This document shows, piece by piece, positions 38,443 through 63,508 of a stretch of 64,000 nt of DNA. Positions within the stretch are counted from its first letter, which is position 1. Each line of letters begins with the position of its first letter. The notes beneath the pieces are model-generated. The model was not told where the DNA came from. It did not search any database and saw only the letters and a program-made list of their open reading frames with translations. The DNA is taken from contig CP047043.1 of the NCBI GenBank assembly GCA_020541285.1, positions 1,178,001-1,242,000 on the forward strand, in the 5' to 3' direction. The stretch comes from Candidatus Gillettellia adelgis. Its GTDB lineage: Bacteria > Pseudomonadota > Gammaproteobacteria > Enterobacterales > Enterobacteriaceae. The translations under genes and the position numbers were made by a program.

Positions 38443-40716
38443 TTATCGTGTGTTATCTATTATAGATAACGGTGGCAATGTATTTATATTAATATAATCA
38501 ACATGTTGCAAATAACGTGGAAGTTGTGTACCTTTTTGGCCACGCTCACCGCGAAATTTTTTGAGTTCTTCCGGTTTTAACGTTAGCTTTCGTTTGCCTC
38601 TATATAAAGTAATAGACATTTGCGATGATAAAACAAATAACCACAACACCTTATCGTTTTTGGTTACCTCCTTCACCGATGAAATAGATATAATCTTCTT
38701 ACCCTTGCCTTTTGATATTTGTGGAAGATCTGTAATTGGGAACATTAACATACGCCCAGCTGCAGTAATTGATAATAGCATATTATGCACACTATCGATT
38801 TTTATGGGTGGTAGTACCTTAGCGTAGTCCGGTAAAGTAATTACCGTTTTACCAGCACGATTACGCGATACTAAATCATTAAAAATGCAAATAAACCCAT
38901 AGCCAGCATCAGAAGACACTAATATTCTCTGATCATCGTGCGCCATTAAAACTTGTTCGATTATAGCGCCAGGCGGTAACATCAACTTACTACTAAGTAG
39001 TTCATATTGTCCGCGCCCCCAAGGTAGCGTTACTGGATCAAGCGCATAGCTACGCCCAGTAGAGTCTATAAATACTATCCACTGATTGCTCTTACCATGA
39101 GCTGCACTATAAAAGCTATCACCACTTTTATAATGCAACTCACCTAATTCTATGTCGTGCCCTTTTATAATACGTACCCAACCCATCCTTGATAGCACAA
39201 CAGTCACCGATTCAGGCGGTAAAACATCATACTTATTCATCGCGTGAGCTGCTTTTCGCTCAAAAAGAGGTGATTGGCGATCGTCGCCATAGGCATATGC
39301 AGCAGATTGGATCTCTTTTTTAAGTAGGGCATTTAATTGGAGATTAGAGGCTAACAGTGCTTGTAGTTGATCTCGCTCTTTCGCTAAAGCATCCTGCTGA
39401 GTGCGCATTTTAGATTCTTCTAAATTAGCTAAATGTCGCAGTTTCATATCTAGAATCGCTTCCGTTTGAGCTTTAGATAGACTGAAACTCTTCATTAATA
39501 GTGATGTAGGTTCATCCTCAATACGGATAATATGAATTACCTGATTAAGCTTGAAGAAAGCGACTAATAAACCTTCAAGCAAATGCAGAGATTGTATGAC
39601 TTTCTCAAGACGATCGTTAATTCGGCGACGCACTGTATCACGTCGGTAGGTAAGCCATTCAGTTAAAATTTCTACTAACCCTTTTACTTTTGGACGACTA
39701 TCTAAACCAATCATGTTCATATTAACGCGATAGCTACGCTCTAAATCTGTAATAGCAAATAAATGATTCATTACTTGCTCTATATCCATGCAACTTGCAT
39801 GCAATACAATAACTAGACGTGTTAAATTTTTGTGATCTGATTCATCACGAAAATCCTTGACCATCGGCAGTTTTTTGGCGCGCATCTGATTAGCCATTTG
39901 CTCCAGGAGTTTTGCTCCGGAAACCTGGTATGGCAATGCAGTGATCACTACATTATTATCTTCCTTTTTCCAAATTGCGCGCATGCGCACTGAACCACGA
40001 CCATACTGATAAATTTTATGTATTTCATGACGCAAAGAGATAATCTCAGCTTTAGTAGGAAAATCTGGCCCTTGGATAAAGACGAGCAAATCTTCAAGCG
40101 AAGATTCCGGATTATCAATTAGTGCAACTATAGCGGCGGCTATTTCATGTACGTTGTGTGATGGGATATCAGTTGTCATACCAACAGCGATTCCAGTAGT
40201 GCCATTAAGCAAAATATTCGGTAAACATGCTGGTAATATCTTTGGTTCCTGGAGAGTCCCGTCAAAATTTGGTATCCAGTCGACGGTGCCATGACGCAAC
40301 TCAGATAGCAGGACATCTGCATATTTAGATAATCGAGATTCAGTATAACGCATAGCGGCAAAAGATTTAGGATCATCTGGTGCTCCCCAGTTTCCTTGAC
40401 CATCCACTAGTGGATAGCGATATGAAAATGGCTGTGCCATTAACACCATAGCTTCATAGCATGAACTGTCGCCATGCGGATGGTATTTACCCAGTACATC
40501 ACCTATAGTACGGGCAGATTTTTTAAATTTAGCGCGATTATTTAGCTCTAACTGAGACATAGCGTAAATAATACGGCGTTGTACAGGTTTTAACCCATCA
40601 CCAATACATGGCAATGCTCGATCCATGATCACATACATAGAATAATGTAGATAAGCATTTTCAGTAAATGAGTGTAGTGGTAAACGCTCTATATCATCAT
40701 GCGTTAGATCACTCAT
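38443..40716 (-). CDS. parC: DNA topoisomerase IV subunit A
   Basis: Breaks and rejoins DNA to unlink daughter chromosomes, with ParE. 757 residues (E. coli 752). The N-terminal winged-helix domain carries the active-site Tyr124 in [10 protein letters not shown] (E. coli Tyr120), preceded by the quinolone-region text [14 protein letters not shown]. The C-terminal beta-pinwheel has repeated motifs such as SKGKGKKII and RGERGQKGT (about 690-745). It starts with ATG after an AAGGA at proper spacing. It lies 309 bp downstream of parE on the same strand; in E. coli other genes separate the two. Confidence 0.97.
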
Positions 40717-58025: not shown

Positions 58026-58895
58026 ATGACAGCAACAATTCTTAACGGCACAAGCATTGCACAGCAAGTGAAAAATAAAGTGGCTGAGCAAATCAAAAAA
58101 CGCTTGTTAACTGGTAAACGCGCTCCAGGTCTGGCGGTAGTACTAGTTGGTAAAAATCCAGCCTCACAGATTTACGTTGCTAGTAAACATCACGCCTGCA
58201 ATGAAGCAGGCGTGATTTCTCGTACCTACAATTTACCTGCCACCACTAGTGAACCTGAACTACTAGCATTAATTGATCAATTAAATACTGATTTAGAAAT
58301 TGATGGCATTCTATTACAATTGCCTCTACCCGCTAGTCTTAATACTATAAAAGTATTAGAACGCATCCATCCAAAAAAAGATATTGATGGTTTTCATCCT
58401 TATAATATTGGCCGTCTATGTCAACGCATACCTACACTACGGCCATGTACCTCACAGGGTGTGATCACTCTACTCGAGCGTTATAACATTGATACTTATG
58501 GCCTCAATGCTTTGGTAGTTGGTGCTTCTAACATTGTTGGCCTACCGATGAGTATGGAGTTACTATTAGCCGGTTGTACCACTACGATTACCCATCGATT
58601 CACCAAGAATTTATGTTATCATGTTAAAAGCACTGATCTTCTAATTGTAGCAGTCGGTAAGCCAGGTTTTATTCCTGGTCACTGGATCAAACCAGGCGCT
58701 ATTGTCATAGATGTTGGGATAAATCGTCTAGAAAATGGAAAAGTAGTGGGTGATATAGATTTTCTCACTGCCAGAAAACGTGCCTCTTACATCACACCGG
58801 TGCCAGGCGGTGTTGGACCAATGACTGTTGCTATGCTCCTACAGAATACTCTTCAAGCTTGCATAGGGGCATCAAAATTAGAGTATTCATTCTAA
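58026..58895 (+). CDS. folD: methylenetetrahydrofolate dehydrogenase/cyclohydrolase
   Basis: Bifunctional enzyme interconverting 5,10-methylene-THF and 10-formyl-THF, supplying C1 units for purines and formyl-Met. 289 residues (E. coli 288). Active-site Tyr50 and Lys54 (SQIYVASK), [10 protein letters not shown] with Asp121, and the [19 protein letters not shown]-binding turn are intact. It ends with [14 protein letters not shown], the family C-terminal signature. Confidence 0.97.
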
Positions 58896-59157
58896 ATAAG
58901 GACAGCAGAGATGTTAGTACAGGTGATTACTGGAGTGTTACTCTGTATCATCCATGATAGTATTAAGACATATGCATAAGAAAGCTTGAAAATAACATAC
59001 CCTAACCATAGAACCTGTAAAGATACAAGTCAAGCTCTCACCCTAAAAGCTATAAAATTAGTTCCAACAAATTGGTCGCATTACATAGGAATAGACTAAT
59101 AGTTAAAACATACCAAAAATCACTAAAGATCATTGACTGTTCACAAGCCAATTCGTT
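58896..59157. other. intergenic between folD and the left repeat arm
   Basis: No gene seen. A 63-codon ORF at 59133-59324 overlaps the repeat arm and is not conserved in the other arm. Confidence 0.5.
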
Positions 59158-59697
59158 TTTTATCTAAATTCTACTCATCAGCAGAAACAATAATAACGCT
59201 AGGACTCTTAATTACAGACACTATGATTAAAAAGTATAATTGCATAAAATCTATCTCATTTTATAGAAGCGAGTACTTCAGTTGCACTACTAAAACTGTT
59301 TATATTCATACATTTATATATTAGTTATTAATAGCATTAAATCATAACTCAGATGAGATAACATGCAAACAATTAGAACTCCGATGGGTATTTGTACATC
59401 TTAAATTATAATGTATATACACCATTATTAAGACTAATTAACGAATAAATATTCATTGAATCTCTTGTTTATAACATTATCGCTAATGATGACACTCTTA
59501 GGTATAAGAGGATTGTTTATTCTTCTAGGTTAATAAGCATGACAGTGTAAAGACATGGTTAAAGTTAACAAAACTACAAAGGAGCATATTAAAGAAATTA
59601 CCCTATTCATTCATCGTGTGCCTGTATAACATACAAAAAGCATCACATATAACGACATGCTTTTCGAAAAATGTAGATTATAACAAGCAGAATAACC
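59158..59697 (+). repeat. left arm of a ~540 bp inverted repeat flanking cysS
   Basis: The arm is repeated in inverse orientation at 61970-62507. The core at 59301-59468 is identical over 168 bp to 62195-62362. From about 59281 to 59630 there are about 8 mismatches plus a 2-base indel (about 98% identity); toward both ends identity falls to roughly 80-85% with small indels. The content is non-coding as far as I can tell; a short frame starting MVKVNKTTKEHIKEITLF lies in both arms but is cut short in this one. Confidence 0.95.
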
Positions 59698-60168
59698 GTA
59701 TCTATATAAACACTATAGATGTCCTGCAATTAAATAGTATAATTAAAAGGATTAATGTTAATGCCTCGATGCTACAGTATATACCCCTAAGTTAAGATGG
59801 TATCTATTAAATGTTATAGTGAACCGTTTAGTTATTAAACACTGAACTATATAGTAGATAATATCTATAGTTGACCTAAATTGGTGTTTTATCAGTATCC
59901 TCATGATTGTAGAATATTTTTTATGAACATCAAGTATGTTAGATAGTTATATGTATAAAGCTAAGTTAGCAATCGCGATATGACAGGTAATGGATATAAA
60001 ATATCTGTATTGTCACATCTGTTTATAATTACCTTCATTATTTTACAAGATAGGTAAGTAAACGTGCATTATCTTACGCTGAAGCTGACTACCAGTTGAA
60101 TTCACTAACTAAAGTTTATTGCACCCTTATTGCTCTTTGTATTGTCATTTGGACTATGGAATGCCTCA
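59698..60168. other. spacer between left arm and cysS
   Basis: About 470 bp. ppiB is divergent to cysS here in E. coli; no trace is readable. Nothing else recognised. Confidence 0.5.
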
Positions 60169-61554
60169 ATGCTAAAGATTTTTAATACCTTCAGTCGTAA
60201 AAAAGAAGAGTTTAAATCCATTAATCTAAAAGAAGTTGGTATGTATGTGTGTGGAGTAACTCTTTACGATTTATGCCATATTGGTCATGCACGTACCTTT
60301 GTCGCCTTTGATGTAGTAGCACGTTATTTACGTTATTTAGGTTATACCCTTTATTATGTCCGTAACGTTACTGATATCGATGATAAAATTATCCAACGTG
60401 CAGCAGAAAATTTTGAAACTTACAATCAACTAACCGAACGTATGTTGGCGGAAATGCATGTTGATTTTGATGCTTTGTTAATTGAACGCCCGGATAAAGA
60501 ACCACGAGCTACTCAACATATTGCTGAAATCATTGAAATCATTAAGCGCTTAATACATCGTAAGCATGCCTATATAGCTAGCAATGCTGATGTGATGTTC
60601 TCTGTTAGCAGCGATCCAAAATACGGTATTCTATCAAGACAAGCGTTAAAGGCACTGCAACCTGGTGCACGCATTAAGATTAAAAATGTTAAGCATAATC
60701 CAATGGATTTTGTGTTGTGGAAAATATCAAAACCAGGTGATCCAAGTTGGAAATCACCCTGGGGAATGGGTCGTCCTGGTTGGCATATCGAATGTTCTGC
60801 CATGAATAGTAAAGCACTAGGTAGCTGCTTTGATATTCATGGTGGTGGTTCGGATTTAATCTTCCCACATCATGAGAATGAGATTGCTCAATCTAGTTGT
60901 GTATATGAAAATAGTTACGTTAATTACTGGATGCACTCTGGCATGGTAATGATAAATAAAGAAAAAATATCTAAATCTCTAGATAACTTTTTTACTATTC
61001 GCAATATACTAAGCAATCATGATGCTGAAACAGTCCGTTACTTTTTAATGTCCAGTCATTATCGTAGCCAGCTAAATTATAGCGAAGCTAACTTAAATCA
61101 GGCACGTAATGGGCTGGAAAGGTTGTATACTGCTTTACGTGGTACAGATTTTTCTGCTATTCCGGTTAAAGGAAGTAGTTTTGAAGCACGCTTCCGTGAA
61201 GCGATGGACGATGATTTTAATACTCCAGAGGCTTACTCAGAATTATTTAAACTGGCGCATGAAATCAATCGCCTTAAACATAAAGATAAAGTGGCGGCCA
61301 ACCGAATGGCGGCAGTAATGCGTAACTTAGCAAAGGTCTTGGGCCTGTTACAACAACCACCGGAACAGTTCCTGAAAAATAAAGTACGAGTTAATGGTAT
61401 TGAAAAAATAAAAATTGAAGCGTTAATTAAACAGCGTGATAAAGCACGAGCATCAAAAGAGTGGATTTTAGCAGATGCTGCACGTGACCAACTAATAGAG
61501 ATGAATATTCTTCTTGAAGATGGGCCGCAAGGTACCACTTGGCGTTTCAAGTAA
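60169..61554 (+). CDS. cysS: cysteinyl-tRNA synthetase
   Basis: Charges tRNA-Cys. The ATG at 60169 ([15 protein letters not shown]) gives 461 residues, exactly E. coli's length; the frame is open 13 codons upstream but unrelated. HIGH is at 37-40. The zinc ligands Cys28, Cys209, His234 and Glu238 are all present. The KMSKS loop is KISKS (266-270). The C-terminal anticodon-binding helices and GPQGTTWR end are intact. The gene sits inside a 2.3 kb unique segment bounded by long inverted repeats, so its orientation could switch by recombination. In E. coli cysS and folD are also near each other. Confidence 0.97.
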
Positions 61555-61969
61555 TTTAAGTAGGTATATAATCATTGATACTATCGATATTTATCAAGAT
61601 AGAAACTGGTCTTGCTTGCAGTGATTTTTATTATTTTTACTTATCTGTGTTACTAACTAACGTAAAATTTTCGAGAGTCGCAAACTAAATCTTTCATTTT
61701 ATTACTGTATCCCAGGAGCAGTGTACTAAAGCATTCCAATTAAATTATCGCTTTATTACAATCATTGAGACCCAATTGGTATCATTAGTAAGTGTGCGTA
61801 TATTAAGAAAATCAAGAAAAGTTACGCAATATCTTAATTGTTATATTTTTAATTAAATACGTGTTTTCATTCTGGTAAAATAAGCGATATTTTATAATTG
61901 AATGGTTTATTCGGCAGGAGCACCATGCTAGGTGCAGCATGCAATTTTAATACATCAGTCTTTATCCAT
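61555..61969. other. spacer between cysS and right arm
   Basis: About 415 bp with no recognisable gene or clear terminator. Confidence 0.5.
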
Positions 61970-62507
61970 TATTTTGCTTTCTATAATCTATATTTTTCGA
62001 AACGTATCTCGTTATGTGTGATTTTCTTTTGTATGTTACAGGCATACGATGAATGAACAGGGTAATTTCTTTAATATGCTCCTTTGTAGTTTTGTTAACT
62101 TTAACCATGTCTTTTCACTGTCATGCTTATTAACCTAGAAGAACAAACAATGCTCTTATACCTAAGAGTGTCATCATTAGCGATGATGTTATAGACAAGA
62201 GATTCAATGAATATTTATTCGTTAATTAGTCTTAATAATGGTGTATATACATTATAATTTAAGATGTACAAATACCCATCGGAGTTCTAATTGTTTGCAT
62301 GTTATCTCATCTGAGTTATGATTTAATGCTATTAATAACTAATATATAAATGTATGAATATACACAGTTTTAGTAGTGCAACTGTGAAGTACTCGCTCCT
62401 ATAAAATGCTATGATTTTATGAAATTATACTTTCTCTAATCACAGTGTCTGTAATTAAGAGTCCTAGTATCATTATTTGACTACTGACGAGTGGAATTTT
62501 AGTCAAG
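61970..62507 (-). repeat. right arm of the inverted repeat flanking cysS
   Basis: Reverse complement of 59158-59697, with the perfectly identical 168-bp core at 62195-62362. On the minus strand the shared frame starting MVKVNKTTKEHIKEITLF stays open here for about 49 codons, whereas the left-arm copy stops after about 24. I do not recognise the product and cannot say it is a gene. Confidence 0.95.
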
Positions 62508-62806
62508 AAATAACATTTGTATATAAAAGCATCCGCAATGATAACCAGTATATCCCCGTAATGTTTGAATGTCTAAAAACATATAAATAGACTGGTTAAT
62601 TAATCGAAACTAATTTAAAAAAAATCTTTTACTTTCGTTGATGAATTAAACGTTAAGCGTAATATTTATGCATGCTTTTGCAGTTATCTTGACAAGTAAT
62701 GATAGCGAATAAAAGTTAATACATATAACTTTTCAAATAAAGTGGTTTAAATGAGTATTATTACTATTACAAAAGCGATTACTCTAACCTAGGCTTAACG
62801 TAAATA
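62508..62806. other. intergenic between right arm and fre
   Basis: About 300 bp of AT-rich sequence with no gene or clear terminator. Confidence 0.5.
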
Positions 62807-63508
62807 TTAGACAAATGAAAAAGCATCACCGAAGACATGTGCCTCTTGCGCACCACGTTCAGCACAAAAATGTTTACGAAAGATTTTTGCCATTTCGAAA
62901 CGACCAGCAATATAAATATCATGCTCTGCTAGCGTGCAAAAATCCTGTAAGACAGCACTCAGCACAGTACCACGACGGCCATACCACTGATCTGTTGGTC
63001 GCTCAACAACCGAGTTCACCTGTAAATTTGGGTATTTTTTCGATAGCATTTCTAGTTCATTTTGATCGTACAGATTCTTCACTTCTCTTCCACCCCAATA
63101 CATTGAGATATAGCGATCAGGCTGTTTCTCTAGCGCTGCCAATAAAATTGAACGTACGTAAGAAAAACCCGTCCCTACGGCTATGAGCAAAAGAGGACGG
63201 CATCCTGCTTCACGCAACCAAGCGTTACCATACGGCATATCAATAGTAATGGTCTGTGATTTTAAAATAAGCTCTATCACCGCTATAGCATAGATATTGA
63301 GTTCCGATGCACTAATATGTAACTCAATATACTCCTGTTGAGATGGTGTCGATGCCAAAGAAAATGGGCGCTTGTCATATGGATCCATCACCACCATTAA
63401 ATATTGTCCAGCCTTAAATGAACATGGCATTTCAGGTGCTAAACGAACGCGATATACGATATCGGTAATAGCTTCCACTAAAGTCACATTACACTTCAAT
63501 ATTGCCAT
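62807..63508 (-). CDS. fre: NAD(P)H-flavin reductase
   Basis: Reduces free flavins with NAD(P)H; the reduced flavin serves ferric iron reduction and ribonucleotide reductase activation, among others. Length 233, as in E. coli. The flavin-binding RPFS motif is at 47-50, GQYLMVV precedes it, and the pyridine-nucleotide segment reads AVGTGFSY (110-117) where E. coli has AGGTGFSY, a Gly-to-Val change at 111. [11 protein letters not shown] and FGDAFSFV close the protein. The partner gene ubiD upstream is decayed. Confidence 0.96.

Follow-up and report, generated by a model that had tools for sequence, protein, structure and literature searches.

The window, 64,000 bases of the forward strand (bases 1178001-1242000 of the 1,413,209-base single-contig genome of Candidatus Gillettellia adelgis, contig G000:C1 below), holds an intact cysS gene enclosed by two long arms that are reverse complements of each other, with folD on one side and fre on the other. 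In window coordinates the features are as follows.

58026..58895, + strand: folD, left neighbour of cysS, 1.3 kb from it, and the reference for the orientation test
59166..59695, + strand: left arm, non-coding, from the inverted-repeat alignment
59301..59468, + strand: perfect core of the left arm, 168 bp, the longest identical run, read off the arm alignment
59696..61968, no strand: spacer, 2,273 bp, probably reversed with respect to the ancestral arrangement
60166..61554, + strand: cysS, cysteine--tRNA ligase, intact (TIGR00435, E 8.7e-178), flipped relative to folD
61969..62499, - strand: right arm, non-coding, reverse complement of the left arm at 92.3% identity
62195..62362, - strand: perfect core of the right arm, 168 bp, the longest identical run, read off the arm alignment
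62807..63508, - strand: fre, NAD(P)H-flavin reductase, next to cysS on the right here and not a neighbour of cysS in E. coli

The genome has a GC content of 34% (464-kb sample), and open reading frames of at least 100 amino acids make up 40.5% of it (864-kb sample). From its size, its coding density and its relatives we infer that it is a decaying, host-bound genome of the same family as these relatives, presumably that of a symbiont.

The two arms align over 535 columns with 38 difference events; the alignment score is 858, and the best of 20 shuffles reached 36. The first-pass annotation had placed the arms at 59158-59697 and 61970-62507; the repeat is real, and its ends are refined here to 59166-59695 and 61969-62499. 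The 2.3 kb segment with cysS that it saw between them is the 2,273-bp spacer with its TIGR00435 match, and the perfect core of 168 bp that it described is confirmed in the arm alignment. It had also given the identity as about 98% over some 350 bp, falling to about 80-85% at the edges; the unevenness stands, but the values change to 96% over a central ungapped block of 361 nt and 82-96% in the edge blocks. When 38 events are scattered at random over 535 columns, an identical run of at least 168 arises in only 1 of 20,000 permutations. This uneven divergence means either that the middle of an older duplication was re-homogenised, as the annotation had proposed, or that the middle is under constraint. 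The latter is unlikely because the arms contain no open reading frame of at least 60 amino acids apart from a TTG-start frame of 63 amino acids (59133-59324), which overlaps the outer left arm and was given no weight, because the Rfam scan of the region gave no match even at E 5, and because the fold of the left core region is unremarkable (z -0.54). A functional RNA in the arms was rejected on the same Rfam and fold results.

The arms do not look like a mobile element either. A search of the whole genome for further copies, which the annotation had suggested, found no third copy of the arm (next-best match 35.6 bits), and among 40 genomes searched, this one included, three others gave matches, all of at most 41.9 bits and at most about 46 bases. 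The left arm matched nothing in phage and plasmid collections, and its six read-through frames matched no Pfam family, in agreement with the annotation's remark that no insertion-sequence features are seen. An insertion sequence, phage or other mobile origin was rejected on these grounds and on the fact that the arms differ between pairs (see below), although the arms may be a mobile remnant decayed past recognition by such searches. A site-specific invertible element of the phase-variation type would have short recognition repeats and an invertase next to them; the arms here are 530 bp long, and no invertase was recognised by eye among window open reading frames of at least 100 amino acids.

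The genes cysS and folD are convergent in all 49 relative loci that hold both, whereas in the window they are co-directional and still adjacent. The orientation set consists of 109 relative loci with cysS, taken from two collections in which species may recur; 60 have no folD in the fetched stretch and are uninformative, and the 49 convergent loci are made up of 37 counted by script and 12 read from the other side, which are convergent by their coordinates. Since cysS is flipped relative to all 49, an inversion happened at least once, and the segment inversion suggested by the first-pass annotation gains support as an evolutionary event; its further idea was that both orientations may coexist in the population. 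The simplest account would be that the segment with cysS turned around where it stands. Synteny breaks beside the right arm (62500-62806), where fre takes the place that ppiB and lpxH have in E. coli. Searches beside cysS with E. coli protein queries, meant to place the ends of the inversion, found no remnant of ppiB, lpxH, ybcI or ybcJ above chance. These ends may lie within the arms, and we suppose that the flip of cysS took place by way of them.

The inverted-repeat structure is not specific to cysS, as it recurs in at least nine more places in the genome. A self-comparison of 864 kb (61% of the genome, in 41 stretches joined into 20 segments) returned 34 pairs at E 1e-4. If a local pair is defined by a length of at least 120 bp and a spacer of 200-3000 bp, these include 10 local inverted and 0 local direct pairs, the rest being mostly short palindromes and short weak matches. 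The nine further inverted pairs lie at the following positions of G000:C1.

225715-229010
253960-256482
457777-459091
532926-534656
667759-669491
795369-799144
857322-860149
1276572-1280163
1321345-1323381

The ten pairs range in aligned length from 159 to 1018 bp, with identities of 72.6, 76.1, 81.9, 89.5, 92.3, 94.3, 98.0, 99.1, 99.2 and 100% and spacers of 541, 967, 1275, 1549, 1559, 1616, 1721, 2206, 2273 and 2397 bp. Markov resampling of the sample, done five times, produced 1, 0, 0, 0 and 0 hits, all types counted. The sole local direct repeat listed is an 88-bp tandem, and the longest distant match (138 bp, 70%, 55 kb apart) falls in a long open reading frame (window 38443-40716) and is followed by one of 81 bp. 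Arms of different pairs show no mutual match at the threshold of the self-comparison. Open reading frames of at least 100 amino acids overlap none of the 20 arms, where the chance that a random stretch of the same length escapes such an overlap is 0.36 to 0.53. In seven of the nine pairs that have any difference, the longest stretch of identity is greater than a random scatter of the differences would give (p < 0.02); in the other two, both diverged, the differences are not clustered (p 0.95 and 0.26), and the tenth pair (596 bp) is without any difference. Identity rises with arm length (Spearman 0.71, p 0.02), and there is a weak trend toward lower identity with longer spacers (Spearman -0.56, p 0.09). 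Exact 16-mers are not inverted-only: for spacers of 500-1000, 1000-2000 and 2000-3000 bp there are 2, 5 and 3 inverted and 0, 1 and 3 direct occurrences, but these counts are small, and are blurred in distance by the outer pieces of long arms, and they were not used as evidence.

Seven of the nine further pairs enclose one recognised gene or RNA gene. The recognised protein genes in spacers, that of the window included, are cysS, asd, ansP, tmaR, ribF and ygfZ; one spacer holds the 4.5S RNA gene, one holds a gene without an NCBIfam match that we take to be a polysaccharide deacetylase, and two of the ten hold no recognised gene. Among the four genes whose orientation relative to neighbours could be judged, only cysS is flipped. 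Both asd, judged with a neighbour that we take to be yhgN, and ribF, judged with rpsT and ileS, keep the orientation that they have beside these neighbours in E. coli, and ygfZ, compared with a partial prfB match at a distance of 5-6 kb, is not flipped either. The idea that an inversion with staggered breaks lies behind every repeat was dropped because these three genes keep their orientation. The gap between ribF and ileS is about 1 kb of non-coding DNA (L155 14339-15373, which is G000:C1 534339-535373) compared with 42 bp in E. coli, indicating that non-coding DNA was probably gained there.

The first-pass annotation had read the homogenised middle as a sign of active homologous recombination, and in the usual sense of that term this is not borne out, as recA, ruvC, ruvB and mutS were not found. 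No match to recA was obtained in the genome with TIGR02012 or PF00154, each of which is positive in 14 of 14 controls, and a search reading through stops detected no remnant. Nor was there a match in the genome to ruvC (model positive in 8 of 14 controls, E. coli included), to mutS (11 of 14, E. coli included) or to sbcC, whose model hits all 14 controls and exceeds its cut-off in one; ruvB gave five weak matches, all below the cut-off. Within the 61% sample, recC (partial query), recO, recR, recF, recJ, mutL, ruvA, sbcD, polA and xerD went unseen; the sample does contain a partial recG-like match, which may belong to another helicase. Conversion that depends on RecA calls for RecA and for RuvB and RuvC, none of which was recovered. 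With recA, ruvC, ruvB, mutS and sbcC not found, ordinary homologous recombination is unsupported, and it is probably not the mechanism. Of the 40 genomes, 8, this one included, lack a recA match. An intact recB and a recD, the latter seen in the 61% sample, are kept at G000:C1 1382203-1387550 in spite of recA not being found. The genome, in which sbcC was not found, also contains near-perfect spacer-less palindromes of 50-82 bp at G000:C1 27564-27615, 715564-715645, 1391428-1391477 and 1393920-1393996.

We hypothesize that template switching independent of RecA homogenises nearby inverted arms and sometimes flips the spacer between them, and we consider this probable, if only by a little. The arms would be two inverted copies of drifting non-coding DNA, complementary to each other on any single strand. 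Where a fork stalls or a single-stranded gap is left, newly made DNA in one arm could pair with its partner arm, whether that of the same strand or that of the sister strand, copy it and then return, a course that would require neither RecA nor Holliday-junction enzymes. Such copying would overwrite one arm by the other, most strongly in the middle, where a tract can both start and end inside the homology, and would leave the edges diverged. A switch in one arm followed by a return through the other would flip the spacer, here with cysS. Direct repeats, not being complementary on one strand, would not be kept alike by template switching, and the need for a partner within reach would limit spacers to about 0.5-2.4 kb. 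SbcCD cuts hairpins, and the loss of SbcCD and MutS may make the intermediates tolerable.

The identity of the arms is clustered in tracts (seven of nine pairs at p < 0.02, the cysS pair at 1 in 20,000) and the nearby copies are inverted only (10 versus 0 in 61% of the genome), both of which are as template switching predicts. The dimensions of the cysS repeat count against it, since arms of 530 bp and a spacer of 2.3 kb are far from the template-switch cases described in PMC8604942. Also against it are the single flip among the four judged genes, the two pairs without clustering, the weakness of the trend with spacer length and, in other genomes described below, the 4,145-bp spacer in G008 and the counts in G007 and G021. 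The template-switch step itself, the origin of the duplications and a process that still operates are what we infer from this pattern.

The strongest alternative is that RecA recombination, acting before a recent loss of recA, made both the homogenisation and the inversions, and that the direct repeats were deleted, leaving a survivor bias toward inverted ones. Recombination deletes between direct repeats, so that such deletion is to be expected from general knowledge, and the absence of direct repeats may reflect deletion rather than a lack of homogenisation. Lopez-Madrigal et al. (PMC4479817) argue that traces of concerted evolution may persist after the genes for recombination are gone. However, RecA would also have kept distant inverted copies alike, and in the sample there is nothing above 81 bp beyond 2.4 kb except the single 138-bp match at 70%; in addition, no recA remnant was detected, and a genome of another genus (G008, described below) is likewise without a recA match. 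We judge this history unlikely, if by no means negligible.

Plain divergence offers a simpler route. Inverted duplications of various ages, produced by template switching or by tandem inversion duplication, could have diverged with no homogenisation at all, and the spread of identities from 100% to 72%, the 596-bp pair without differences and the DNA probably gained between ribF and ileS would all fit such a mixture. Uniform divergence is rejected, however, by the clustering seen in seven of the nine pairs, by the 1 in 20,000 of the cysS pair, and by a pair around a tusE-like gene in G008 whose clustering was equalled in 0 of 20,000 permutations, and we consider it distinctly improbable that duplication and drift are the whole story. 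Selection on a functional element, keeping both copies of a core alike, would explain high identity amid drifting DNA, but it would have to do so with no long open reading frame, no Rfam match at E 5 and a fold z of -0.54, in arms that are unlike each other from pair to pair and around spacers of which 2 of 10 hold no recognised gene; we give this very little credence. Assembly or amplification artefacts, such as chimeras with inverted ends, are similarly hard to believe in, for although three of the ten pairs are at least 99% identical and by sequence alone indistinguishable from artefacts, the cysS arms are separated by 38 difference events and lie between unlike flanks, divergence in the six other pairs under 99% is 2-27%, and another genome shows the same structure.

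Several known systems resemble parts of the template-switching account. Two papers describe Portiera aleyrodidarum, a whitefly symbiont without recA, as carrying repeats in long intergenic regions that are said to be kept by gene conversion, together with structural polymorphism (PMC4285135, PMC7821994). The likeness is that several intergenic repeat pairs are kept alike in a genome lacking recA, as is found here. The difference is that in Portiera from Singhiella simplex both kinds of repeat occur, 23 direct and 17 inverted (PMC7821994), whereas the long local pairs here are inverted only (61% of the genome sampled). In Tremblaya, whose genome is poor in recombination genes, a segment between inverted repeats is reported in both orientations (PMC4285135), and a nested partner is proposed as the supplier of recombination proteins (PMC4479817); that case concerns one locus, and ours at least ten. 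In yeast, template switching at short inverted repeats is reported to lead to arm homogenisation and spacer inversion in PMC8604942, which describes quasi-palindrome correction where the arms are short and the spacers only a few bases long, in contrast to the arms of about 160-1018 bp and spacers of 0.5-2.4 kb found here. The introduction of that paper calls the homogenisation of long inverted repeats well studied, and homogenisation as such is therefore not new. Long inverted repeats are actively maintained in Caenorhabditis as well, where the inverted structure is kept while the sequence drifts (PMC1803023); this is a likeness to the present set, although Caenorhabditis is a eukaryote and its repeats involve paralogous gene pairs, unlike our non-coding arms. 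Our literature search, with most subscription papers outside its reach, found no report of a local, inverted-only set in a bacterial genome. It is this local, inverted-only repeat set that is the new part; repeat instability itself is of a known kind.

We also put forward a broader proposal, more tentatively and with somewhat less than even confidence. In decaying genomes that have lost RecA, MutS and SbcCD, template switching at forks may become the main form of recombination, one that gives rise to local inverted repeats around single genes, keeps their arms alike and eventually loses them, flips some of those genes and adds non-coding DNA. Its signature, a landscape of local repeats that are inverted only, would then be readable in more lineages than one. 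The loss of RecA was long taken to have frozen reduced symbiont genomes, a view that a review questions (PMC4285135). If the proposal is true, a set of local, inverted-only repeats with homogenised cores shows recombination continuing by another route, flips of single genes are explained, and such genomes offer a natural view of replication template switching without its usual guards. The signature is countable, as inverted versus direct and local versus distant pairs, and can thus be tested over many genomes.

Counts from other genomes agree with a link to the loss of recA without proving one. The first 400 kb of G008, which belongs to another genus and has no recA match, gave three inverted and no direct pairs, all weak (53-95 bits), where six resampled copies of these 400 kb gave none. 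An excess of inverted over direct pairs was predicted beforehand for a fresh 400 kb of the same genome, which yielded one strong inverted and no direct pair, for a total of 4 versus 0 in 800 kb; one event is a small test. This pair (G008:C1 610009-613028, L250) aligns over 923 columns at 80.6% identity, with a spacer of 1193 bp that encloses a tusE-like gene scoring above the cut-off of TIGR03342 and below that of the TusE model. Its middle is 91-95% identical and its edges 66-79%, and the clustering of its 173 events is that matched in 0 of 20,000 permutations. A weaker inverted match in G008 has a spacer of 4,145 bp. A 190-bp imperfect palindrome (G008:C1 609818-610007) lies just outside the tusE pair.

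Two compact genomes without a recA match, G007 and G021 (200 kb each), had no local inverted pairs, and G021 had five weak direct ones. G015, also without a recA match and with a GC content of 20%, gave 51 inverted and 40 direct pairs within 20 kb and 6 and 10 within 3 kb; it was rejected as a comparison, being too AT-rich to be informative. In G013, which has recA, 400 kb contained no local pair by the definition used above (at least 120 bp, spacer 200-3000 bp) in either orientation, although it is a weak control, being 73% coding by the same measure. Below 120 bp, one direct pair (105 bp) and one inverted pair (82 bp) are present in it. The same genome carries a tandem array with a 75-bp period at G013:C1 513888-514219, whose units are about 97-99% alike.
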